Source of the DNA: an uncultured Bacteroidales bacterium
GTDB taxonomy: Bacteria > Bacteroidota > Bacteroidia > Bacteroidales > FEN-979
Assembly (NCBI GenBank): GCA_903925275.1
Contig: CAIYES010000239.1
Span: 1 to 32,882 of the forward strand
DNA: 32,882 nt
Reading direction: 5' to 3'
The notes under the pieces were generated by a model, which saw only the letters and a program-made list of their open reading frames with translations, had not been told where the DNA came from and made no database searches. The position numbers and the translations under genes were made by a program. This document shows positions 11,275-28,962 of this stretch, one piece after another (the stretch's first letter is position 1; every line of letters starts with the position of its first letter).

Positions 11275-11652
11275 CAGAAAAAAGTTATCAACATTCCTTT
11301 CACCTTTCATTCTTTTCCGGATTAAGCATTATCAGGTTTCGGACTGAGCAGGTTGAGATGTGTTTTGTGGCGTGTCATCATGGCCTTTTTGACAAGCCTC
11401 AATAAATATCTCGAAATTGTTGCCTTTTCCTTGACAGCATCTTATATTTACACCTGTTAATGAAGTCACATTATGCTCAGACTGAATCTGACTGTTAGTT
11501 GTTTTAACTTTTTTTTATGAGCTGTTAGCGTCTGTTTCTGAATGAATAGAGATATAATCATAATGAAATATCCAATGAAACCATGTTCAGGCAAACCTTA
11601 CATGACAATCATGGATATTTTAGGTGATAATTAAAAATGAAATTGTCAGCAT
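11275..11652. other. Intergenic region before the seven-gene envelope operon
   Basis: These 378 bases hold no convincing ORF, hairpin terminator or RNA gene. TATATTTA (11443-11450), with TTGTTG 20 bases upstream, is the best promoter-like site, but it differs from the consensus at one position of the -7 box and lies 200 bases before the ATG. The region is A/T-rich, and the operon promoter very likely lies in it. Confidence 0.5.
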
Positions 11653-13461
11653 ATGAAAGATGGTGTGATATTTCTCTTTGTCATACTACTGAAAATCAGT
11701 ACTGTAAATGGCCAGGTTTCCATCAGTTCCACCAACGATGCTGCTGATCCTTCAGCAATGCTCGAGGTAAAATCAACCGTTAAGGGTTTTCTGGTTCCCC
11801 GTATGACGGCGGCTGAGCGGGATGCCATAGCCAGCCCTGCCACCGGGCTGCTGATCTTTTGTACCGACAACCAGCAATTTTACAGTAACCAGGGCACATC
11901 CATCGAAAAAAACTGGGTTATGGTGAACAGTCAATGGATTTCCACCGGATCCGACATTTATTTCAACACCGGAAATGTGGGAATCGGAACTTATTCGCCA
12001 GGGGCCAGGCTGCATGTTGCAGGAAACGCTATCGTTAATGGTACTGCGGAAGTAATCGGAAAACTTTCAACAACACCTTCTTCATTTTCAGGCTCAGGAT
12101 TTCTCCTGCCACATGGATCTGCCCCTTCGGCACCGGTTAACGGCGATTTATGGACTACGTCCAGTGGTCTTTATGCGCGGATCAGTGGAATGACAATTGG
12201 TCCTTTTGGCACAGGCAACGGCAACGGTACTGTTACCAATGTTTCTGCCACATCGCCATTGATAAGTTCAGGGGGAACAACGCCCGATATCTCAATTCCG
12301 AAAGCCTCCTTGCTTTCAAACGGATATCTCAGTGCGGCTGATTGGAATACTTTTTCCAACAAGGTCAATACGGTTTCAGCAACTTCTCCTTTATCCAGTT
12401 CAGGCGGGACATCCCCGAATATAACCATTTCCCAGGCATCTAACATCAATAGTGGCTATCTGACCTCTTCCGACTGGATTACATTCAATGGGAAAGAGAG
12501 TGTTTTAACATTTTCCTCCCCATTGTCGAGAGTTGGCAATACAATTTATTTACCGGCTGCATCTGCTTCACTCAACGGATACCTTTCCAGTTCGGATTAT
12601 TCCAGACTTCATGGAACAGCCGGCAGTGTTTTATTTTTCGATGGAAGCGGAATACAGCAAAACGCGGCTTCCTTTTTCTGGAATAACAGCAATAACCGCT
12701 TTGGGATTTTGACTAATAGCCCGGCGGCATCATTTTGTGTCGGATCGGGCTCCGAGTTTCAGGTTGCATCCAATGGGAGTTGCTCGGCAACGGTCAATTC
12801 AACCGGCGCTGCATTCGCCGCCACAAATTCCAGTGCTTCAGGAACAGGGATTATATCGTTTGGACAAGGTACTTCGGCATTTGATCAATCAACACCTTCC
12901 GGAGGGGCTTTTAAAGGGACTACGTTTGGGGTTTATGGTGAAGCTGTTTATTATGCGACCGGAGGACGTTTTGGCGGATATTTCTACACCAGAAAAAGCC
13001 CCACCGAAAGTTCCTATGCTTATGTTGGCGGTTATATCGGCGGAATTGCAAAAACTATTTACGGAGTTGGTTATACAAGTTTAATGGTTCCATCCCCGGA
13101 AGGAGGGAATGTTGATATGTTTGGCCAGGTAGCCCCTGAAATTTTGGTGAATGATTATGGTACAGGCACACTGGTCAAAGGCTTTTGCCATATTGTGATT
13201 GATCCCGTGTTCTCAAATAATATTATTTCCACCAAGGATCACCCGATAAAAATTTTCATTCAGCTGGAAGGTGACTGCAATGGCGTATATGTTACAAATA
13301 AATCCGTTTTTGGTTTCGATGTAATTGAACTGAAGGGGGGCGTCTCCGATGTAAGTTTTTCATGGTCCATTACGGCGAATCGCAAGGATGTCATTAACAA
13401 AGATGGTTCAATATCATCAAAACATATCGGGGTTCGTTTCCCCAAATCCGTTATTGATTGA
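11653..13461 (+). CDS. Secreted tail-fibre-like repeat protein
   Basis: A 602-aa exported protein with a signal peptide (residues 1-20, ending TVNGQ). Residues 22-125 form a head common in Bacteroidetes surface proteins (AMLEVKSTVKGFLVPRMTAAER, then GNVGIGTYSPGARLHVAG). A module of about 40 residues, VSATSPL.SSGGT.P.I.I.(A/S)S...GYL...DW.TF..K, occurs at 198-237 and 241-281 and in degenerate form at 285-321; it resembles phage tail-fibre repeats. The C-terminal region (HIVIDPVFSNNI, then IFIQLEGDCNGVYVTNKS and SFSWSITANRK) looks like a terminal domain shared by such proteins. Such repeats usually form trimeric fibres in phages; a surface fibre here is inference. It is the first gene of the operon, and the next gene starts 21 bases on. 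No T9SS sorting domain is seen. Confidence 0.8.
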   Translation: MKDGVIFLFVILLKISTVNGQVSISSTNDAADPSAMLEVKSTVKGFLVPRMTAAERDAIASPATGLLIFCTDNQQFYSNQGTSIEKNWVMVNSQWISTGSDIYFNTGNVGIGTYSPGARLHVAGNAIVNGTAEVIGKLSTTPSSFSGSGFLLPHGSAPSAPVNGDLWTTSSGLYARISGMTIGPFGTGNGNGTVTNVSATSPLISSGGTTPDISIPKASLLSNGYLSAADWNTFSNKVNTVSATSPLSSSGGTSPNITISQASNINSGYLTSSDWITFNGKESVLTFSSPLSRVGNTIYLPAASASLNGYLSSSDYSRLHGTAGSVLFFDGSGIQQNAASFFWNNSNNRFGILTNSPAASFCVGSGSEFQVASNGSCSATVNSTGAAFAATNSSASGTGIISFGQGTSAFDQSTPSGGAFKGTTFGVYGEAVYYATGGRFGGYFYTRKSPTESSYAYVGGYIGGIAKTIYGVGYTSLMVPSPEGGNVDMFGQVAPEILVNDYGTGTLVKGFCHIVIDPVFSNNIISTKDHPIKIFIQLEGDCNGVYVTNKSVFGFDVIELKGGVSDVSFSWSITANRKDVINKDGSISSKHIGVRFPKSVID

Positions 13462-13482
13462 AAACATCTGACAAGAAAACGT

Positions 13483-14832
13483 ATGAAAAACTGGTTACTT
13501 GTTTTTACAATCCTAAACATCAGTATTTCAACCATTGCAAATCCTGAGATCACAGAAGTTTATACGGTTTCTGTGGCAATTAACGACACTGTATGCAGGG
13601 ACAGCAGCGTGTGTTTTAGTGGCGTTCCTTTTAACCTGAATCTTTTATGCAGACCTGCCGGCGGGGTTTATTATGGTTCACCGGCTATTCTTGGAGATCA
13701 ATTTAACCCGATCACAGCAAATATCGGATCAAACATGGTCTACCATGGTTTTGTAACTGGGATTGATACAATCGAGTGTTGTTCATTTGTTATTTCGGTC
13801 ATTGATACGGTCTTTCCTGCAGGAATTATCAATGGATCCGGTAGTGTTTGCATAGGAGAAACTGAAACCTACAGCATTGACCCCATTGCAAATGCAAATT
13901 CCTATTCATGGAGTTTTTCCGGTTCCGCAATTGAGGATAGTATCACAAATACACCTTCAATATCTTTATTTTTCGATAATGCGTTTACCTCCGGGTCTTT
14001 AAACGTGCAGGGAATAAACGACTTGTGTGCAAATCCCGGAATGGTATCAACTAATTTTTTTATCAACATAAATGCACGCCCGGCGGCTACAATAAGAAAT
14101 GTTAACGATACCATCACTATAACAGATAATCTTTGTAAAAAAGCCCGTATTCATTATTATGTAGTTGAACCGTTTAAGCGTTACAAATGGGCGGTTCAAA
14201 ACGGTAAAATTTTAACAATTGACACTTCGCGCAATGTTACCATCGATTGGGATACCGTAGCAGGCAGTAGTTCTTTGACAGTTACCGTGGAAAATGAATC
14301 AGGATGTTCGGGGTCCTCTGTACGGCAGGTGAACATTATGAACGGAACTGCGCCCGACCCCTCAGTTATCTGGCTGTTTGGTTACAACATGCTTGTATGC
14401 AGCGATTCTTTGATAAATTCGTACCAATGGTATAATGATAATGCATTGATACAATATGCCACCAATCGTTATTTTCTGGCCGATACGAACAATAGAAACT
14501 GTTATTATGTGCAAACCTGCATTGATGCCTGCTGCAACATGTCCGACCCTTATTGCTTTTTCAACCCCTCTGCCATCGACGATTTAACCCGTCGTACAAT
14601 CCGGATTTTTCCGAACCCTGCGGGTGAAAAAATTCAAATCAGGATAGACTTAGCCAACGGTCATAATGGTCGTGTTAGTATTTTCAACCAATTTGGCGCA
14701 ATGGTAAAAGAGATGTATGTCGCCTCCGGCGATTTTCAAATTGATTTGTCATTGCTACCTCGCGGGTTGTACTATATCAGATACCTCAATGAATTGGATG
14801 GGGTGTTTATATCGAAGATCATTAAAATCTAA
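13483..14832 (+). CDS. Cys-rich T9SS cargo protein with PKD-like domain
   Basis: A 449-aa protein with a signal peptide (about residues 1-20). A C-terminal type A sorting domain spans the last 77 residues or so: IRIFPNPAGEKIQI, VSIFNQFGAMVKEM and LPRGLYYIRY. The middle has Ig/PKD-like beta segments (GSGSVCIGETETYSIDPIAN, SYSWSFSGSAI) used in adhesins and extracellular enzymes. It has about 15 cysteines, including a cluster CYYVQTCIDACCNMSDPYC before the sorting domain, which suggests disulfides after export. No catalytic motif is visible, so it is likely a structural or adhesive surface protein. It is second in the operon, 5 bases before the next gene, so it is probably co-produced with the barrel and TssR-like proteins. 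Confidence 0.82.
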   Translation: MKNWLLVFTILNISISTIANPEITEVYTVSVAINDTVCRDSSVCFSGVPFNLNLLCRPAGGVYYGSPAILGDQFNPITANIGSNMVYHGFVTGIDTIECCSFVISVIDTVFPAGIINGSGSVCIGETETYSIDPIANANSYSWSFSGSAIEDSITNTPSISLFFDNAFTSGSLNVQGINDLCANPGMVSTNFFININARPAATIRNVNDTITITDNLCKKARIHYYVVEPFKRYKWAVQNGKILTIDTSRNVTIDWDTVAGSSSLTVTVENESGCSGSSVRQVNIMNGTAPDPSVIWLFGYNMLVCSDSLINSYQWYNDNALIQYATNRYFLADTNNRNCYYVQTCIDACCNMSDPYCFFNPSAIDDLTRRTIRIFPNPAGEKIQIRIDLANGHNGRVSIFNQFGAMVKEMYVASGDFQIDLSLLPRGLYYIRYLNELDGVFISKIIKI

Positions 14833-14837
14833 GAAGC

Positions 14838-16223
14838 GTGAAGAAGTCCATAGTGTTTTGGTTGCCAGGATTGTTCTTTCTGGTGTTTTCAACAATTCGC
14901 CTTGGCGCACAAACTAAAGCAGACACCTTCGGGAAAATAGAGAAATTCCTTCAGGATTATCAGGATTTTTCTGCTTTGGGAAGATCCGGAAGTCCTTACA
15001 TTGATGAAGCTACCATCAGCTCGTTTAAAAACCTTTTTGAAATGGATGCGAACCTTTTCTGGGATCTTTTTAAGACCGAATCACAGCGGATCAATTACCT
15101 GCTGACTGTTGAGGAATATACAGATAGTGTTCAGCGGGTTTATGCCGGAAAGAAACCGGTTATTTCTTATGGGAAACATCATATTGCAATAAATGCGAGC
15201 GGAAAAACTGCGATTGCTTACCTGCACAAAACAAACAATGTTCCGGGTAAAAAGGATTCCAGGGATTTCAAGCTGAATAAAACAGGGTTGAACCTTCGAC
15301 TCCTTTTTAATATCCGGGAAGACACCATCTTAATTCAAAACATTACAGAAGATACACGACTTACCAGAATCAGAAACCTGAGCATTGAAGGTTGTTATAA
15401 TTTCGTAAGTAAAATTTCAGGCAGTTTCTTCGAAAATCCGGTATCTGCAATAAACCCCGAACTTACATCAGGCTATACCATTGGAAATCAAACAGGTTTT
15501 AACATTGGTGTGAATATGGATTTCCGGATAAACAGAAAAACACTTGATGGGCTTCTTATCAATGTTGGATTATTGTATTCGAGGACTGACGCTACTGTAA
15601 ATATAAATAATTATGTGAACTCATACCGTCAATCATTTGATCCTGATACAAATCCTTTCGAAATCTCTGTTTTTGACAGAACACCCGGGATCAGGGAGAA
15701 AATATCCCTCATGGGGTTTTCCATACCGGTTACGCTAAAATGGTATGTGTTGCACCGGTTTTATTTGAAAGCCGGTCCTCAGTTCAGCCTGTTTTCAGGG
15801 ACTTCGCAAGTTACCTACACTTTATCGCATACAGGAGGAGGTAAATGTCTGTTAATTAATGAAAATTCCCTTCCAGCAAATGAACAAAAGTGGTTTTACC
15901 TGGATGAGCAACATGAGATGGCTGATGCACAATATGGTTTTTTCAGAAACAGGGAATTTGCAGGATCATCAACCATCAGCCTGACCACCCTGAATGTAGC
16001 AGCAGTTTTTGCGATTGGTATTGAAGCAAGATTCAAAAAAATCGTTATCGGGATTGAGCCGTGGCTGACCCTGGGTTTAACGAATCTTACAGGAACATCA
16101 GGGGTTGAGGATTACAAATTGTACCCAGAAACAGTTTATAGCAGCTTTTTGCAAACCTTTAGATCACAAAAATTAAATACAGTCGGGCTCAAACTAATCA
16201 TAGGCAAAATGTTTACCAGGTAA
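14838..16223 (+). CDS. Outer-membrane beta-barrel protein with N-terminal helical domain
   Basis: A 461-aa protein with a signal peptide (residues 1-25, ending RLGAQ). The N-terminal region (about 28-170, FGKIEKFLQDYQDFSALGRSG, SSFKNLFEMDANLFWDLF) is helical and resembles an NTF2/SnoaL-like fold by eye. The C-terminal half (about 205-461) has alternating beta strands, such as GFSIPVTLKWYVLHRFYLKAGPQ and LNTVGLKLIIGKMF, typical of a small outer-membrane barrel. The start is GTG 14838, five bases after the upstream stop, giving MKKSIVFWLPG. Its place between a T9SS cargo gene and the TssR-like gene suggests an outer-membrane component of the operon's machinery. No specific function is known to me. 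Confidence 0.75.
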   Translation: MKKSIVFWLPGLFFLVFSTIRLGAQTKADTFGKIEKFLQDYQDFSALGRSGSPYIDEATISSFKNLFEMDANLFWDLFKTESQRINYLLTVEEYTDSVQRVYAGKKPVISYGKHHIAINASGKTAIAYLHKTNNVPGKKDSRDFKLNKTGLNLRLLFNIREDTILIQNITEDTRLTRIRNLSIEGCYNFVSKISGSFFENPVSAINPELTSGYTIGNQTGFNIGVNMDFRINRKTLDGLLINVGLLYSRTDATVNINNYVNSYRQSFDPDTNPFEISVFDRTPGIREKISLMGFSIPVTLKWYVLHRFYLKAGPQFSLFSGTSQVTYTLSHTGGGKCLLINENSLPANEQKWFYLDEQHEMADAQYGFFRNREFAGSSTISLTTLNVAAVFAIGIEARFKKIVIGIEPWLTLGLTNLTGTSGVEDYKLYPETVYSSFLQTFRSQKLNTVGLKLIIGKMFTR

Positions 16224-16233
16224 TTTAACAACT

Positions 16234-18615
16234 ATGACCGGAAGGGCATTCTTTTTAACCTTTTTGATTTGTGCCGCGATTACATATCCGGTTACTGGTC
16301 AGAAAAATGCCTTAAAGCAACCGGAATGTCTGCTGAATCCTGTAAAGGAAATCGACATTAACTTGATAATCAGTGCGCAATGCAGTCCGCAAAAAGGAAA
16401 AGCAAATCCATGGATTGTTTTTTCGAACAGGGGAGATGACTTTGGATGTAAATATTTTGTTGTTGGTGAAAACCTGACGCATTTTCATATCTGCTCGGGT
16501 ACCGGGGTGAATGGGCTGACAATATTAAACTTAAAAGATAAAGGGTTTAGACCAAAATCGGAATTTCTTTTTCATTTCTCGGCCGATTTTTCAGCTGATG
16601 CATTGATCCATCGCAAATGTGTCATATTAAATTCCCAGGGGTTGATCGATAGTATTTGCAAGGGTTTAATTGAAGAGTCGCGCATCCCGGTTTATGCTGA
16701 TCCCTATGTCAGGAATATGCAGAATTACACAGATGCCTTCGGGAATATTCTCCCGCGATTTTTACCCCTGTACTCAATTTACTTCATCTACCAGCGTGAA
16801 AATAACCGGTATCTGTTAGGAAGGGATTATAAATTTGAAACCAATCGCCCTTTCGGTGATCAGATTATCGGTTGGGTGGATGCTTACCGGGTGTTCGATT
16901 ATAACAACAGGTTATGCTTTGAACCCAATTTTGAAGCAGCAGCAGTGAGACAACGACGATGCGATACCTTATTTGGGAATGCAAAGGTTTTTGCAACCGC
17001 AAGTGAGTTGGAAGTGTTCCTGACTAATCAAAAAATTAACATTGAACCCTTCTGGGAGGAGCCAGGGACATTGTTTTTGCGTCAGCCCAAAAAATTTAAT
17101 GTTGCCGATACTTTCAACATATATTCCCTGAGAAATACCATTGCCAGAAACAACTGCGGTCCGGGGACCAAGTGTTTCATTGCCAATTTTACAAACACGG
17201 AGTTAAAAGCAGATTTTTTCAGATTTCCTTTCCTTGGCATAAACCGTGTTGATAAAAAAACTTTTCAGGTAGCAGCCACCGGAAGGTATATTAAAAGCCG
17301 TAAAAGCAACTGCGATTCATTGACCAGGGATAAATACAACCTGAAGGTGTTTTTCATACTCCCCGATTCCTTAGCCAACTTTTATCCCCTCTTTTTTTTA
17401 AATCAGCTTAACGGGAAATATGCCAATTTTAATAAAGAATATCATGCATGTTATTATCCTCAGCAAACCGATCTTTTGGTATCGTTCGGCTCAACAAACA
17501 GTGGACAGAAAAATTACGACATCATCCGGGACAGCCTGATAAATCATAAACCGAATGCTAAAAATCAAGCGAATGCCAATTGCTTTACCGTATTAAATCA
17601 GGTTCTCAGGAAGGAATCTTTCAATAACCGGGAAACAAATCTCATTGTTTTGATCAATACACGGCAAACCGGCAATACACCAAACAATTATTTAAACTCA
17701 ATTGCCAATAAGCTTGCAGAAAAAAACTGCTATCTGCTGGCATTTGATTTCGCAAATAATCAAACATTTAATTCATCGGTTGACAGTATTATCAGAAAAG
17801 CTGCCACATCCTATAAAGAGCGGTATAACTTACCGGCGTTTCCGATAGACTGGCAGCAATCGGGGAAATGTAAATTTTTGACGAATTATTTGCTGGCAGT
17901 CCTTTCCTCCATAGATACGACTGGGTTAAAAGGGCCACAAATTCTGGAATACATTCAAACATCCTATGATCCGTTAATTTCAACCGTTAACCGGATGATC
18001 ATGGCTGCGTGTACCAATAATCCTGATACCATTGTGCTGACCCCGAATGAAACCCGCTTCAAACAAGGATTGGAGAAAATAATCTCCGGTTGTTCAAGGG
18101 ATATCTCCTCGATGCGAATATTGAAAAAGGGATTTACCAGGATCAGATATGAGGATAACAGTCCCGATATATGGAAAGGGGAGGTAATTATGACAGAAAA
18201 TGAATTGCACGATCTGATCACACAGCTTGACGGGTTTCTCATCCCGCAAGCAGGCAGTACCCTTTGCGATAGAATCTGCACATTGTGGCAAACGCTGATC
18301 AGCCGGTTTATCGGACAACAATTGCTTGTCGACAATTCATACCTGGATCTGACAATCTGCCAAATAATCAACCGGATGATCGGTTCTAGTTTCGGTTACT
18401 ATTGCAATGAACCGATTAAACGATTCACGCTGAGAGATATATGTCAGGGCCAACAGAATGTTTTAGAACCCGCTTATGCCTATTTAAAGGAAATAGAAAT
18501 AAAAAACGACCTTCTGAAGCAAAAATACAACAGTGAATATTTTCACATAAGCGAAGATGCAGGCAACACAAATAGTATCAAGTATTATTGGGTTCCGGTA
18601 AGTTTATTGCCATAA
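16234..18615 (+). CDS. TssR-like envelope protein with SH3-like and vWA-like regions
   Basis: A 793-aa exported protein (signal peptide residues 1-22, ending VTGQ) with about 22 cysteines. From memory of the family it resembles TssR, the large periplasmic protein of Bacteroidetes T6SS. NPWIVFSNRGDD (59-70) parallels the TssR N-terminal phrase. RIPVYADP to RPFGDQIIGWVDAYR (150-219) looks like a bacterial SH3-type domain, with RLCFEPN after it. Residues 370-515 look like a vWA-like fold (KVFFILPDS, NLIVLINTRQTGN, CYLLAFDFANNQ), but the DxSxS metal site is degenerate. The C-terminus ends YYWVPVSLLP. No other T6SS gene is in the window. It is flanked by a barrel gene (10 bases upstream) and the ABC ATPase gene (18 bases downstream). 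The TssR assignment is tentative; a generic SH3/vWA envelope protein is the alternative. Confidence 0.5.
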   Translation: MTGRAFFLTFLICAAITYPVTGQKNALKQPECLLNPVKEIDINLIISAQCSPQKGKANPWIVFSNRGDDFGCKYFVVGENLTHFHICSGTGVNGLTILNLKDKGFRPKSEFLFHFSADFSADALIHRKCVILNSQGLIDSICKGLIEESRIPVYADPYVRNMQNYTDAFGNILPRFLPLYSIYFIYQRENNRYLLGRDYKFETNRPFGDQIIGWVDAYRVFDYNNRLCFEPNFEAAAVRQRRCDTLFGNAKVFATASELEVFLTNQKINIEPFWEEPGTLFLRQPKKFNVADTFNIYSLRNTIARNNCGPGTKCFIANFTNTELKADFFRFPFLGINRVDKKTFQVAATGRYIKSRKSNCDSLTRDKYNLKVFFILPDSLANFYPLFFLNQLNGKYANFNKEYHACYYPQQTDLLVSFGSTNSGQKNYDIIRDSLINHKPNAKNQANANCFTVLNQVLRKESFNNRETNLIVLINTRQTGNTPNNYLNSIANKLAEKNCYLLAFDFANNQTFNSSVDSIIRKAATSYKERYNLPAFPIDWQQSGKCKFLTNYLLAVLSSIDTTGLKGPQILEYIQTSYDPLISTVNRMIMAACTNNPDTIVLTPNETRFKQGLEKIISGCSRDISSMRILKKGFTRIRYEDNSPDIWKGEVIMTENELHDLITQLDGFLIPQAGSTLCDRICTLWQTLISRFIGQQLLVDNSYLDLTICQIINRMIGSSFGYYCNEPIKRFTLRDICQGQQNVLEPAYAYLKEIEIKNDLLKQKYNSEYFHISEDAGNTNSIKYYWVPVSLLP

Positions 18616-18633
18616 TGTTTATCACCTATTCCA

Positions 18634-19443
18634 ATGAATGTATTTGTCATAGAAAATCTGAAATGTTCCTACCCGTCGAGTGGGAAACCAATATTGTTCA
18701 TTGAAAACCTGGCGATTCCGAAGGGCAAAATGACTGTAATCCTTGGAAGATCGGGTAGTGGAAAATCAACACTTGTTGAAGCCCTCGGGTTGATGAACAA
18801 TACCATAGTGGCAGGGGAGGTCAACTATTTTTCACCCGGCGGAGTTGTGGATTTGGCGCAATTGTGGAATAAACGCAAAAAGGTTTCAGCCATCCGGCGG
18901 AATTACTTTTCGTTTATCTTTCAGGATGATTATTTAATGCCTTATTATACATGTGTTGAAAACATGCTGATCCCAAGACTTATTCAGCATAAAATGGCTT
19001 CTGCCCTTACGGGAAATTTTTTGGACAAACCCCTTGAGTTTTTGAACCTTTCGGGCAACGGAATCATGAAACAATTGCCTTGTCAGCTTGCAGGAGGACA
19101 AAAACAAAGGCTTTCGTTTATCAGGGCTGTTATAAAAGATTTTGATGTGCTTTTTGGCGATGAACCTACCGGAAATCTGGATCATGCCAATTCCGGAAAT
19201 CTGTTTGATTTTATTAAAGAGATCATCTATGAAAAATTCCGGACGGCTGTTATCGTTTCGCACAATGTCGAACTCTCAGTGGAGAAGGCAGACAGGATTA
19301 TTGTATTGACCCATTGCGAAGACAATACCCAATCTCATTTCAGGCTTCATCCGGATCATATTTTTGATCGCGATATAAACAATCATTGGGAAAACTTTTC
19401 CAACCCACAGGACCTGACAGATTATATCAAATTAATATTGTAA
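18634..19443 (+). CDS. ABC transporter ATP-binding protein, MacB/LolD/FtsE type
   Basis: A 269-aa cytoplasmic ATPase. The Walker A motif is GRSGSGKST (38-46), the Q-loop Gln lies in FIFQDDYLMP (about 97), the signature is LAGGQ (152-156, Ala in place of Ser), Walker B is DVLFGDEPTGNLD (171-183), and the switch His is His210 in VIVSH. The FGDEPTGNLD phrase is typical of the type VII (MacB/LolD/FtsE) group that pairs with FtsX-like permeases. About 45 residues follow the H-loop region, a modest extension. It starts 18 bases after the TssR-like gene and precedes a matching permease. By family it would drive mechanotransmission in the periplasm rather than transport across the inner membrane; that role here is inference. 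Confidence 0.9.
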   Translation: MNVFVIENLKCSYPSSGKPILFIENLAIPKGKMTVILGRSGSGKSTLVEALGLMNNTIVAGEVNYFSPGGVVDLAQLWNKRKKVSAIRRNYFSFIFQDDYLMPYYTCVENMLIPRLIQHKMASALTGNFLDKPLEFLNLSGNGIMKQLPCQLAGGQKQRLSFIRAVIKDFDVLFGDEPTGNLDHANSGNLFDFIKEIIYEKFRTAVIVSHNVELSVEKADRIIVLTHCEDNTQSHFRLHPDHIFDRDINNHWENFSNPQDLTDYIKLIL

Positions 19444-19483
19444 AAAAAATGACAGAGAAGATTTTTCCAGTATCGGCAAATCC

Positions 19484-21031
19484 ATGAAAAAATATTTAAG
19501 GTTCTATTCTGTTGTAACAAAAAATGAGTTTAAGGCAATCCGTGGATCCGGATTTCGTTCAATTATCTATTTGTCTGGAATCTTATATCTCACTTTTTTA
19601 TGTATCGGTTTTTCAAATAATGCGCTGCTCTATCAAAATAAACTGTCGAAAAATCCCCTTTCAAATTGGATAAATATTGAAATTAACAAGCGGACTCAGG
19701 ATTCAACTGAGCGTTTAATGAATGACTTGTCCGACCCGGTATTGAAAAACAAATATTGTATAAAAAACCTCTATTTCTCGAAAGAATTCGGAACATCTTT
19801 CCTCGACCGGACCGGACTGAGTTCCGGGTTGCCTTTACCAAAAGCCCGTACAACCGACCCGAAAAGTTCCATCATACATGATCTGTTTAATCGTGACAAC
19901 GTTGTTAAGGCCGTGGTTGCAGACAATATTTTTCAAATCGAACCATTCGGGTTTGTGGTAACGGAAACATTCCTGAAGAAATTAGGATTTCATTACGATT
20001 CAGTTTCTTATTTGTCATACCGTTTATACGGAGGCAAATATGTACCGGTACCCATTTTGGGGGTCGTAAAGGAGTTGCCCGACCATGCCGATATTGTTTG
20101 CACGGATTCATTTTATATGATGCAATTGCATATTTATCCCGATGATAGTCTTTTTTCAAAACTTTTTATCGACACGCATGACCTTGAGATGGTAAAACAG
20201 TTAAAAGATGTGATCAGGAAAAAAACCGGCCTTTCAAACGGGTTACCCGTTTTTGATTCCCTGAAAGGGTATAACAATGCACTCTGTGTCCTTTATTTTT
20301 CAAACAAATTTCCGGAAATCAGCCGGTTATTTAACGATAATCTGAGTGACTTGTACAAATTGAAGGAATTTCAGCATGTTCACTTTGGAACATTTTTCGA
20401 GGCAAAAATTGAAGTAACGGCGCAGCAAGCCAAAAACTTTATGCAAAATAAACGTGACTTTAATTTCGATTACCTGGCTGTTGAGTTCAGCAAGCTTGAC
20501 AAGATTAAAGATTTTTCAGCCTATATCAAAAACAGGTACAATATATCAATGAATATGGAGACCGTAACCCAACGGCAAAACTATCTGTTCTCTTTAAATA
20601 TTTCGTTGGGGGCCATTATCCTTGTTTTGATCCTGGCAGTGCTTTCGATTGTCATTTTTATTTCAAATACCCTGAAAAATCATCTCGACAGAGTTAAACG
20701 CAACCTTGGTAATTTCCTTGCATTTGGTACCAGTGGCCATAAAATAATTGGTATATATATCATCGTAGTCATGAAAATATTGTGGGTTTCCATGACCATC
20801 GCACTTATCCTTGCATATTTTTCAGGGGAATTATTCGACAGGTATTTATTAAAAAACATGTTAATCCTCGAAGGAGATCAGGACTTTTTTTCGCTGTTTA
20901 ATATCTGGCTTGTTTTGTTTATCATCGTAGTTATTGCAGTAGCAGTTTTAAAAACACTTGTTACTGTGACGCTGCTAGTAAGGCAATCCCCCGGAGATCT
21001 GATTTATGAAAGGGAAAAACATAAATGTTAA
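19484..21031 (+). CDS. FtsX/MacB-type ABC permease
   Basis: A 515-aa inner-membrane protein with the four-helix MacB topology: one helix near residues 23-46 (FRSIIYLSGILYLTFLCIGF), a periplasmic domain of about 320 residues, then helices near 374-397, 424-446 and 474-498. The cytoplasmic loop after the second helix (LDRVKRNLGNFLAFGTSGHKI) and the tail RQSPGDLIYERE are FtsX-like. The periplasmic domain contains MacB-like phrases (VVTETFLKKLGF, VPILGVVKELPDHADIVCTD). It is larger than FtsX and shorter than E. coli MacB because the ATPase is a separate gene. It begins 40 bases after the ATPase gene and is its evident partner. The substrate is unknown; no MacA-like adaptor or TolC homologue is encoded nearby. 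Confidence 0.87.
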   Translation: MKKYLRFYSVVTKNEFKAIRGSGFRSIIYLSGILYLTFLCIGFSNNALLYQNKLSKNPLSNWINIEINKRTQDSTERLMNDLSDPVLKNKYCIKNLYFSKEFGTSFLDRTGLSSGLPLPKARTTDPKSSIIHDLFNRDNVVKAVVADNIFQIEPFGFVVTETFLKKLGFHYDSVSYLSYRLYGGKYVPVPILGVVKELPDHADIVCTDSFYMMQLHIYPDDSLFSKLFIDTHDLEMVKQLKDVIRKKTGLSNGLPVFDSLKGYNNALCVLYFSNKFPEISRLFNDNLSDLYKLKEFQHVHFGTFFEAKIEVTAQQAKNFMQNKRDFNFDYLAVEFSKLDKIKDFSAYIKNRYNISMNMETVTQRQNYLFSLNISLGAIILVLILAVLSIVIFISNTLKNHLDRVKRNLGNFLAFGTSGHKIIGIYIIVVMKILWVSMTIALILAYFSGELFDRYLLKNMLILEGDQDFFSLFNIWLVLFIIVVIAVAVLKTLVTVTLLVRQSPGDLIYEREKHKC

Positions 21032-21123
21032 AAAATGAAATACCCATAGGAATAAAGTTCATGTAAACCGAGAATAACAATTATGGATATTCCAGTTGAC
21101 CATTCATAACAAATTTCAGGCAG

Positions 21124-22206
21124 ATGAAACAGTTCAAAAAATATCACCGGTCGATCATAACCAGGCTTCTTTTGTTGCTGGTGTTTATTGCCTTGAGTTG
21201 CACCCAGCGGAATAAAAGAATGGAAACCATTGACAGTGAACGTATACTTGCAGACCGGCCTGAAGAAAGACCTGCAAACTCAGATACCATAAAATTAACA
21301 GACCGGAATTGTTTTGAAATTGTATGTGCCCGGGAAAATTTAAAAATCAGGAAGGTTATAGGCCCGTTTAAAACCAATGTTCAGGCTGATTCAGTTTGCT
21401 GGGAGTTACTGGGCGCATCGCCGGGGATTACCATGGAACCCCGAAGGGGAATGGACAATAATTGCATTGTCACAATCATTCGTGAAAACAACAACTCAAC
21501 CGGAGAAATAATTTTAAAAACAACTCCCTTCAAATCCCGGTTTACATCAAAATCGTCAGAAGTTAAATTTCTGATTGAAAAATGTATAGATCCCTGCTAC
21601 TGTCGATTAAACCAAAGCAGGCATGAACTCCCTCCGTTTAATGATTCGGGATATTGCAACACATTTCGGGAACAACTTTCTGCAGGTCCCGCATCGTCCG
21701 ACAGCATTACCTGGGAGTTCCGGACATGCTCGGCCGGATTGAAAATAAACCTGCCGGGAAACAAGATAAAAGGAACCAATTTTATCCCATCCTTTCAGGT
21801 TACTAAAAATCCGGTGACATTATCAGGTACGGCTACATTCCATGTTGTCATCTATAAAGCAGGGTGCAACCTGATAACCCGGGAGGATTTTGTGTTTTGG
21901 TTTGGCAACACCCATCGTTGCGCAAGGGATACGGCGATTATCAATATTCAGAGGAGAAAAAACATAACGGAATTCAGAGACTTGTTATATATGTATGCCA
22001 AAACAACAAGTTCCAGAGAAAAGGAGTATTTTAAAATTGATGCAAAAAATAAATTGGATGAAATCCGCAACTGGATCATTGATATTTCACCCGGGAATGA
22101 GCTCCAGGCAATTTTCGATGATCCGGCGTGGTTAAACCCTGTTGTTATTCCCTTGTATGATAAGAACCAGTGTTACATTTCCGGGATAAAAGTCTTGCAA
22201 AAATAA
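21124..22206 (+). CDS. Cys-rich putative lipoprotein, last gene of the envelope operon
   Basis: A 360-aa protein I do not recognise. The N-terminus (positive residues, then ITRLLLLLVFIALSC) suggests a signal peptide with lipidation at Cys26, although Ala at -3 makes the lipobox imperfect. It has about 13 cysteines, including CIDPCYC near residues 153-159. Beta-rich stretches (SDSITWEFRTCSAGLKI, ATFHVVIYKAGC) suggest two Ig-like domains, with a helical C-terminal segment (ITEFRDLLYMYAKTT...NKLDEIRNWI). It starts 92 bases after the permease gene, a larger gap than elsewhere in the operon, so it may belong to the operon or have its own promoter. High Cys content is shared with the T9SS and TssR-like products, hinting at one disulfide-bonded assembly; that is inference. 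Confidence 0.6.
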   Translation: MKQFKKYHRSIITRLLLLLVFIALSCTQRNKRMETIDSERILADRPEERPANSDTIKLTDRNCFEIVCARENLKIRKVIGPFKTNVQADSVCWELLGASPGITMEPRRGMDNNCIVTIIRENNNSTGEIILKTTPFKSRFTSKSSEVKFLIEKCIDPCYCRLNQSRHELPPFNDSGYCNTFREQLSAGPASSDSITWEFRTCSAGLKINLPGNKIKGTNFIPSFQVTKNPVTLSGTATFHVVIYKAGCNLITREDFVFWFGNTHRCARDTAIINIQRRKNITEFRDLLYMYAKTTSSREKEYFKIDAKNKLDEIRNWIIDISPGNELQAIFDDPAWLNPVVIPLYDKNQCYISGIKVLQK

Positions 22207-22220
22207 ATTTCAATTGATAC

Positions 22221-22239
22221 CTCGCTGCTCTGCGGCGAG
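22221..22239 (+). terminator. Possible hairpin terminator at operon end
   Basis: CTCGCTGC (22221-22228) pairs with GCGGCGAG (22232-22239) with one mismatch and a 3-base loop, 14 bases after the lipoprotein stop. The downstream sequence TTGATTTATTAG is only moderately T-rich, so termination is uncertain. Confidence 0.35.
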
Positions 22240-22467: not shown

Positions 22468-23466
22468 ATGATCATGAAAAAGAAAAACAAAATTTGGATT
22501 TACTCATTCATTTTGGCAGGAATTGCATTAATTCTTGTAAACAGTTGCAAGAAGAAGGATGACACTCCAATATCAAGCGGAACGGTTCCTGTATTGACAA
22601 CTGCAGAGGTTAACCAGATAAATGCAACGGTGGCCACCTGCGGGGGTACCATCACAAGCGATGGCGGAAGAACTGTAACTGCAAGAGGCGTTTGTTGGAG
22701 TACAGGTTCAACGCCTACCATAGCCGACAATAAAACAACCATTGGCGCAGGTGGTGGAAGCTTTACCAGTACCATTACCGGATTGAGCCCGAAAACTACG
22801 TTTTTTGTGAGGGCCTATGCCACCAACACTGCCGGAACAGGATATGGAGTTACGATGTCGTTTACAACACAGCAAGGGGTAACAGACATTGACGGCAATG
22901 TTTATAATACAGTAATCATCGGTACACAGGTTTGGATGGTTGAAAACCTGGTCGTAAGCAAATACCGCAATGGCGACCCCATTCCCAACGTTACTGAGAA
23001 CACGGCATGGATCGATCTTACAACGGGAGCTTGTTGTGATTATGAAAACACACCCGCCAACAGTATAATTTACGGTAAGATTTACAACTGGTATGCAGTG
23101 CACGACACCCGGAGACTGGCCCCCATGGGCTGGCACGTGTCCTCCGACGAGGACTGGACAATACTGACAACCTTTCTGGGAGGATCTGATGTTGCCGGAG
23201 GCAAAATGAAAGAAGCGGGAACACTTCACTGGAGCACCCCCAATGCCGGCGCTGATAACAGCAGCGGTTTTACGGCTTTGCCTGGTGGGTTACGCGGCGT
23301 GGATGGCTCATTCGCTACCATCGGGAAATACAGTCACTGGTGGTCGGGAAACGAAACTGATGTTGAAAAAGCAAGGGAATGGTCCATGGATTACAATAAA
23401 ACAATTGTGAACGATGGCAGTCTAAACAAGATTTTCGGCTTTAGTGTCCGGTGCGTGATGGATTAA
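22468..23466 (+). CDS. FISUMP-domain lipoprotein with fibronectin-like domain
   Basis: A 332-aa surface lipoprotein. The signal peptide ends in a lipobox VNSC with Cys27, followed by lysines and an acidic residue. Residues 40-137 match a fibronectin type III-like unit common in Bacteroidetes (TVTARGVCWSTGSTPTIAD, FVRAYATNTAGTGYG). Residues 138-332 are a FISUMP domain (Fibrobacter succinogenes major paralogous domain): DIDGNVYNTVIIGTQVWMVE, IYGKIYNWYAV, GWHVSSDEDW, FTALPGGLRG and FGFSVRCV. Its function is unknown. The start is ATG 22468 or 22474. The gene is separated from the upstream operon by 261 bases, in which I see no clear promoter, and is followed by a strong bidirectional hairpin. Confidence 0.85.
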   Translation: MIMKKKNKIWIYSFILAGIALILVNSCKKKDDTPISSGTVPVLTTAEVNQINATVATCGGTITSDGGRTVTARGVCWSTGSTPTIADNKTTIGAGGGSFTSTITGLSPKTTFFVRAYATNTAGTGYGVTMSFTTQQGVTDIDGNVYNTVIIGTQVWMVENLVVSKYRNGDPIPNVTENTAWIDLTTGACCDYENTPANSIIYGKIYNWYAVHDTRRLAPMGWHVSSDEDWTILTTFLGGSDVAGGKMKEAGTLHWSTPNAGADNSSGFTALPGGLRGVDGSFATIGKYSHWWSGNETDVEKAREWSMDYNKTIVNDGSLNKIFGFSVRCVMD

Positions 23467-27858: not shown

Positions 27859-28962
27859 ATGAAAACATTTTTATTGATCCCAATTTTTTTCCTGAGTGTC
27901 ATTTCTTCAATTCAGGCACAAACCGATTCCCTTATCTTAAAGAATACCTACAGAATCTGGATTAGTCCGATAGAAAAGAGCAAGGTCAAACCTTGGGGTT
28001 TCCCGTCAAACAAAGGCCAGATCTTGCACGGGGTATTGTATGATGTAGCGGATTCTTCCATAATTATTTCGAAAACATCCCATTACAGCATGGATTCCCA
28101 GGTGAAACCGGACATGACGAAAATGGATGTCAGGTCAATGGATGTTATCAGAATCAGAAAAAATGGGAATACCGGCCAGGGGATTTTGATTGGCGCCATT
28201 AGCGGGTTGGTTTTGGGTGGCGTAGTGGATTTAATTTATTATTCATCATGGAAAAACTCAGCAACAAAGGAGACTGATAATCTTGGCGACGCAATTGCCA
28301 ATTCTGTAGAGAGGAGCTCCAGGGTTTTTGCAATATGCGCAAGTTTGATCGGATGCATCGGTACCGGTATCGGTATCGGAGCTGCCGTCGGGTCTGCGAA
28401 AATCACCATTCCTATAAATGGAAATCAGGCACAGTTTGAGCAGAATAAGTCAAGGCTGACCGGGTATTCGGTAAAACACAATCCCGGATTTGTGGAAAAA
28501 ACATTCTCAAAACTTCGGGACAGCGTGGTTGACATCGACGGCAATGTGTATCACCTGGTGGCGCTGGGTGCCCAGGTATGGATGGCTGAAAACCTGAAGG
28601 TTACGCATTTTAGCGATGGCTCGGAAATTTCAGGTGTATCCGGCAATGTTCCCGGATCAGGAAATCTGTACAATTGGGTTGCAGTAAGCGACAGCCGCAA
28701 ACTTTGCCCGGCCGGCTGGCATGTTCCCTTCCTTACAGAATGGAACTCGCTTTTCAGCTCCCTGGACATGCAGAATGGCCAGGGGAGCAAGCCGGATGCA
28801 AGTTTTTCAGCTATGGATAAGGTATGCCAATGGTGGTCATCGACAGAACAGGATGCCAAACAGGCGAAAAGCATTTATCTCAACAACGTAACAAACGTGG
28901 TTATGTTCACCGACAACGAGAAAACGTCCGGTTTTTCAGTGAGGTGTATCAGGGATTTTTGA
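27859..28962 (+). CDS. Exported FISUMP-domain protein with glycine-rich membrane segments
   Basis: A 367-aa protein with a signal peptide (residues 1-20, ending SIQAQ). Residues 22-100 are a beta-rich domain (RIWISPIEKSKVKPWGF, LHGVLYDVADSSIIISK). Two Gly-rich hydrophobic stretches follow, GQGILIGAISGLVLGGVVDL and IGCIGTGIGIGAAVGSAKI, with the look of a glycine-zipper hairpin. The C-terminal 145 residues or so are a FISUMP domain (DIDGNVYHLVALGAQVWMAE, LYNWVAVSDSRKLCPAGWHV, CQWWSSTEQD, SGFSVRCIRDF). It is shorter than the domain in the gene at 22468, lacking the tryptophan-rich middle portion. Both are single-copy genes with different N-terminal halves, so the domain has been reused rather than the whole gene duplicated. 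Function unknown. Confidence 0.78.
   Translation: MKTFLLIPIFFLSVISSIQAQTDSLILKNTYRIWISPIEKSKVKPWGFPSNKGQILHGVLYDVADSSIIISKTSHYSMDSQVKPDMTKMDVRSMDVIRIRKNGNTGQGILIGAISGLVLGGVVDLIYYSSWKNSATKETDNLGDAIANSVERSSRVFAICASLIGCIGTGIGIGAAVGSAKITIPINGNQAQFEQNKSRLTGYSVKHNPGFVEKTFSKLRDSVVDIDGNVYHLVALGAQVWMAENLKVTHFSDGSEISGVSGNVPGSGNLYNWVAVSDSRKLCPAGWHVPFLTEWNSLFSSLDMQNGQGSKPDASFSAMDKVCQWWSSTEQDAKQAKSIYLNNVTNVVMFTDNEKTSGFSVRCIRDF

Follow-up and report, generated by a model that had tools for sequence, protein, structure and literature searches.

The seven-gene operon at positions 11,653 to 22,206 of the window (the whole 32,882-nucleotide contig CAIYES010000239.1, here C239, of an uncultured Bacteroidales bacterium) represents, in lineage-specific form, a module conserved in Bacteroidota that combines TssR, a component of the type VI secretion system (T6SS), with an ATP-binding cassette (ABC) ATPase and a type VII permease. 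The genome assembly (G000) comprises 5.65 Mb in 574 contigs and is 95% complete. From 5′ to 3′, we designate the genes FIB, T9, BAR, TSSR, ATP, PERM, and LIPO. All seven open reading frames are present on the forward strand, with intergenic gaps of 21, 5, 10, 18, 40, and 92 bases, which reproduces the layout given in an earlier annotation made from the letters alone (the sequence-only reading; same-strand genes 5 to 92 bases apart). We also agree with that reading that the genes form a trans-envelope unit, which is conserved and for which we found no matching named system.

A conserved TssR–ABC transporter module

The 793-residue TSSR protein is a genuine, divergent TssR, a relationship that the sequence-only reading had proposed. 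The window protein alone matched only the Pfam domain TssR_VWA, with a sub-threshold score of 23.4 against a cut-off of 25.7. Analysis of its family revealed that (i) the window protein and its 17 homologues (n = 18) together cover all four TssR Pfam domains (M in 14 members, VWA in 10, N in 8, and C in 6; best VWA match 1.2e-24); (ii) an iterative TSSR profile reaches a T6SS TssR at 1e-141; (iii) a profile built from the window's genus and family only aligns with a T6SS TssR over 406 columns (hhalign E 1.3e-15); and (iv) the predicted TSSR model (mean predicted local distance difference test score, pLDDT, 75.5), which contains a VWA fold, retrieves von Willebrand A1 domains from the PDB, among them 5BV8, the entry named for TssR domain 2 in PMC10781749. 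Searched against PDB sequences, the TSSR profile had no match. The initial single-protein search of genome contigs, with P0004 alone as the query, recovered no relatives; the permease profile did.

The window's TssR clade has features of its own. A strict pattern for the metal-ion-dependent adhesion site (MIDAS) undercounted and was replaced by a count of the MIDAS-like motif DGxxSM. No TssR of the window's clade has this motif in place, the single pattern match there (L120) lying at another position; of the 56 other ABC-linked TssRs, 38 have it. Because the VWA metal-site motif has been lost in this clade, TssR probably acts there as a scaffold. Conserved cysteines are confined to the same clade. 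The TSSR N-terminus, AAITYPVTGQKN, has no lipobox cysteine when read by eye.

ATP and PERM form a MacB/LolCDE-type ABC transporter, and the MacB-type pair named in the sequence-only reading is thus borne out by the PF00005 match of ATP, the FtsX C-terminal match of PERM, and structural matches to MacB and LolCDE. The Walker A, signature, and Walker B motifs of ATP (GRSGSGKST, LAGGQKQR, and GDEPTG), read in the sequence, are intact. The predicted PERM model (pLDDT 80.9) has MacB 5lil as its best PDB match (1.5e-9) and also matches LolCDE. In seven other loci (L040, L176, L182, L186, L187, L194, and L196), the ATPase and permease are fused into a single MacB-like protein.

PERM homologues are encoded in 13 of 61 relatives, the window's own genome counted, and TSSR in 12 of the 19 genomes of the window's genus. 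Complete loci in the genus and family share the order BAR-TSSR-ATP-PERM, an optional gene (gene X), and LIPO. The first four genes keep their order in 12 other complete loci, except that L035 lacks ATP, and this order exceeds chance. BAR, TSSR, ATP, and PERM co-evolve in the genus, with correlated pairwise distances (r 0.90–0.99). Loci L103 (G209:C170) and L105 (G202:C275) have a TssR gene without an adjoining ABC pair, followed by four opposite-strand genes of similar sizes in both.

A PERM profile search of species genomes yielded 123 relatives, from which 79 loci were retained. In 60 of the 61 loci with enough upstream sequence, TSSR is found on the same strand at most two genes ahead (median gap 12 bases). 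The scattering of homologues without order, which the sequence-only reading had named as evidence against itself, is thus not what the near or the distant loci display, and TssR-ATPase-permease is the conserved heart of the module across Bacteroidota. The module usually has an upstream outer-membrane-type protein, and often surface proteins exported by the type IX secretion system (T9SS) or a kinase/PP2C/FHA set: the 79 loci include T9SS tails in 28, kinase genes in 19, and PP2C genes in 17. Kinase, PP2C, and FHA were confirmed in L037, and FHA proteins, a barrel, and TssR domains in one Muribaculaceae locus. A locus in G056 has, in addition, an FGE-sulfatase protein and SrfB/SrfC-family genes. 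Among the many carriers in which no sheath gene was detected are two cultivated Portibacter strains, P. marinus and P. lacus (L141 and L155), together with bins that bear the labels Alistipes, Prevotella, and Muribaculaceae. The module was also seen on contigs labelled Caldiserica and Thioalkalivibrio (L135 and L184), which are probably misbinned. At L038 and L106 (G056:C15), where three TssR-like genes lie in tandem upstream, the TssR–ABC cluster extends to SrfB-/SrfC-family genes and to a subtilase.

Relation of the module to T6SS

The sheath protein TssC was traced with PF17541, which was found in all seven searched genomes with a T6SS-type TssR; PF05943 (VipB) was rejected as a sheath probe because it is blind to T6SS-iii, giving no match in PF17541-positive genomes. 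TssC was detected in 3 of the 19 genomes of the window's genus; among module genomes, it was present in 4 of 16 in the first set and in 4 of 50 in the wider set. The first and wider sets overlap (e.g., G056, G114, G221, G296, and G390), so their counts are not additive, and the assemblies are incomplete, so that single absences mean little; the overall pattern does not rest on any one of them. T6SS genes occur in only 1 of the 79 module loci (L187). The window proteins scanned include no sheath or tube proteins and no Pfam match to TssN, TssO, TssP, or TssQ; in related loci, T6SS TssO and TssQ queries had no match, and a TssP query gave PKD-type matches only. The TssR–ABC module is thus found mostly in genomes without a T6SS sheath gene.

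The TssR tree was rebuilt after badly extracted T6SS fragments had been found in its first version. In the rebuilt tree, T6SS TssRs form one group (Shimodaira–Hasegawa-like approximate likelihood ratio support, SH-aLRT, 99) beside L186 and L187, and the window TssR lies outside the T6SS clade. Both L186 and L187 have a fused ABC protein and TssC in their genomes, and L187 has T6SS genes in the same locus. The tree, quickly built and midpoint-rooted with long branches, does not fix the direction of TssR descent.

According to a 2024 study, homologues of the Bacteroidota T6SS membrane complex are not detected beyond T6SS loci, and a search for the ancestral system, which required the complete complex, found none (PMC10781749). 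The module is an exception to this restriction for TssR only, since a complete TssNQOPR-type complex was not found at the module either. A full-text search of the open-access literature returned no paper describing TssR-like or TssR-domain proteins outside T6SS. Because nearly all genomes with the module lack a T6SS, the module is a candidate source of T6SS TssR. We consider it quite possible, while leaning somewhat against it, that this so far undescribed envelope machine is widespread and independent of T6SS, and that it is the ancestral system that supplied TssR to the membrane complex of the Bacteroidota T6SS; L186 and L187, whose TssRs group with T6SS TssRs while the fused ABC protein is retained, would then be intermediates. 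The presence of TssR in an ABC-linked module of many genomes with no detected sheath gene makes the co-option of a T6SS component testable, and it also implies that a TssR match alone should not count as evidence of a T6SS.

Operon layout and accessory proteins

Table 1. Genes and signals of the operon in the window (C239).
Feature	Coordinates	Strand	Description	Matches
Leader copy 1	11562..11649	+	Upstream of FIB	~72% identity over 88 columns to 21034-21119
FIB	11653..13461	+	602-residue exported fibre-like surface protein; accessory	
T9	13483..14832	+	PKD-like domains and T9SS type A C-terminal sorting signal; accessory	PKD_6 2e-15; Por_Secre_tail 7.9e-10; TIGR04183 3.6e-9
BAR	14838..16223	+	Outer-membrane barrel-like protein with N-terminal domain	TDE1717 0.0027 (weak)
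TSSR	16234..18615	+	793-residue divergent TssR; signal peptide and VWA domain	TssR_VWA, sub-threshold
ATP	18634..19443	+	ABC ATPase, LolD/MacB/FtsE-like	PF00005 1.6e-18
PERM	19484..21031	+	Type VII (MacB/LolCDE-like) permease	FtsX C-terminal 5.7e-5 (weak)
Leader copy 2	21034..21119	+	Directly upstream of LIPO, in the place of relatives' gene X	
LIPO	21124..22206	+	Predicted lipoprotein (LSC lipobox)	
Hairpin	22221..22239	+	Intrinsic-terminator-like; 8 pairs, 6 G-C, T-rich tail; just after LIPO stop codon	

FIB and T9 are accessory genes of the module. They stand ahead of BAR in L024–L028, L036, and L104 (the second locus type), with FIB homologues at the equivalent place in each, and are not found there in L029–L032. 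FIB has no T9SS tail and no Pfam or NCBIfam match. The sequence-only reading had described it as tail-fibre-like; a phage tail fibre was rejected, since neither a nearby phage gene nor a family match was found. For the T9SS cargo and barrel of the same reading, the sorting tail and PKD domains of T9 are clear and the barrel match of BAR is weak. BAR has no Pfam match; its family is represented in 13 loci, and it aligns with its distant equivalent in L037 (hhalign E 9e-7). The LIPO family was found in 13 other loci, and the window LIPO is shorter than in most of its nearest relatives (group A). Gene X, a membrane gene with a weak DUF4231 match, is present in most relatives and missing between PERM and LIPO (21032–21123) in the window and in L028. 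Two Fib_succ_major (FISUMP) proteins are encoded downstream of the operon (22468–23466 and 27859–28962).

FIB is preceded by a gap of 378 bases, and no site of the Bacteroidota −33/−7 promoter pattern was found ahead of it. The two leader copies align with a score of 34, compared with a maximum of 18 among 2000 shuffled pairs, and share a motif that lies 48 bases before the FIB start and 47 bases before the LIPO start. The duplicated leader was not found ahead of genes in the related loci. A genome-wide regulon signal was ruled out, since the core motif has a single exact match beyond the two window copies, in an unrelated context. Because a copy of the FIB leader precedes it, LIPO may have its own promoter and may be transcribed separately from the rest of the operon. 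The single operon of the sequence-only reading is therefore favoured by the conserved order and tight gaps, and is not certain at the PERM–LIPO junction.

Proposed mechanism and comparison with known systems

For the operon as the lineage-specific form of the module, the most likely mechanism is a tentative one, to which we give slightly less than even confidence: mechanotransmission powered by ATP, which would start at the inner membrane and reach the barrel and surface proteins by way of TssR. The ATPase would drive the permease, whose large periplasmic domain would move TssR; TssR would bridge to the barrel and lipoprotein; and through this bridge it would control how surface proteins, in this operon the fibre and the PKD/T9SS protein, are exposed, assembled, or anchored. 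Among relatives, threonine phosphorylation might read out or control the unit, by analogy to the signalling from TagQRST to PpkA/PppA in Pseudomonas. Several observations weigh against this proposal: PERM gives low whole-chain TM-scores against solved structures (~0.2–0.45), so that its predicted fold class is clear and its substrate mode is not; the evidence for BAR as a barrel is weak; the FIB and T9 genes vary between loci; no kinase, phosphatase, or FHA genes adjoin the operon among the window proteins scanned; and G000 has T6SS genes elsewhere, including TssC.

The last of these points bears on a rather unlikely alternative, in which the operon supplies TssR in trans, together with regulation, to the T6SS-iii of G000. 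That locus (L070 on C553) encodes ClpV, TssB/C/D/E/F/N, and others, with Peptidase_M91 and CHAP-like genes beside the structural genes. It lacks tssR, and the window TssR is the only one found in G000. All three TssC-positive genomes of the genus (n = 19) carry the window-type TssR locus, which 6 of the 19 carry (chance ~0.02); in L187, TSSR-[ATP/PERM] directly precedes ClpV-TssB-TssC-TssD; and T6SS-iii loci are often split over the genome, with tssR absent or unidentified in 31% (PMC10781749). However, TssC is missing from three of the six genomes that carry the window-type locus (one of the three is 99% complete), from the genomes with only the second locus type, and from 46 of 50 distant genomes, and the window TssR does not belong to the T6SS clade and lacks the lipobox of B. 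fragilis TssR.

A TagQRST-like sensor of envelope damage or contact, with its kinase partner elsewhere in the genome and the surface proteins as the ligand-binding part, is an unlikely explanation by analogy. It would account for the lipoprotein, for the kinase, PP2C, and FHA genes that adjoin the module in many relatives, and for the FGE-sulfatase protein of the G056 locus, which we take to be of the TagR type; however, those three kinds of gene are all absent from the window cluster, and the comparison with TagS/TagT is one of manner of working. The closest solved folds, together with the barrel-like protein and lipoprotein, would also suit an efflux or lipoprotein/peptide transporter of the MacB or Lol type, for which TssR and the barrel would form the exit path. 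We regard this as improbable, given that no MacA-like adaptor or TolC match was found in the operon or scanned flanks and that there is one permease, compared with the two permease subunits per ATPase of LolCDE. We know of no efflux system that carries TssR. Far less probable is a machine for the export and anchoring of the fibre, in line with the sequence-only reading, which had proposed that the machine builds or releases a surface fibre or disulfide-bonded complex. The position of FIB and T9 at the head of this and several related loci and the export route left open by the missing T9SS tail of FIB agree with it, but L029–L032 keep the machine with neither gene alongside, and hardly any distant locus has FIB.

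The mechanotransmission proposed here can be compared with three known systems. The module shares its permease fold and ATPase family with the type VII ABC transporters MacAB and LolCDE, and differs from them in its lack of an adaptor, its single permease, and its separate ATPase gene (fused in some relatives). In the TagQRST-PpkA-PppA-Fha system of the Pseudomonas H1-T6SS, the lipoprotein TagQ and the ABC pair TagS/TagT act in the threonine phosphorylation pathway (PMC6657622). An envelope ABC pair and a lipoprotein are common to both, a likeness in manner of working only, which in many relatives extends to the kinase, PP2C, and FHA and in one to the FGE-sulfatase protein; by contrast, the window has no kinase set, TssR and the barrel are foreign to Tag, and the module mostly occurs without a T6SS. 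TssNQOPR of T6SS-iii (PMC10781749) likewise includes an exported, envelope-located TssR with an N-terminal barrel domain, a second domain, a VWA domain, and C-terminal domains. The lipoprotein signal of B. fragilis TssR is not required by the Pfam definition. The window locus is without TssN, TssO, TssP, TssQ, sheath, and baseplate, and its TssR is paired with an ABC transporter.
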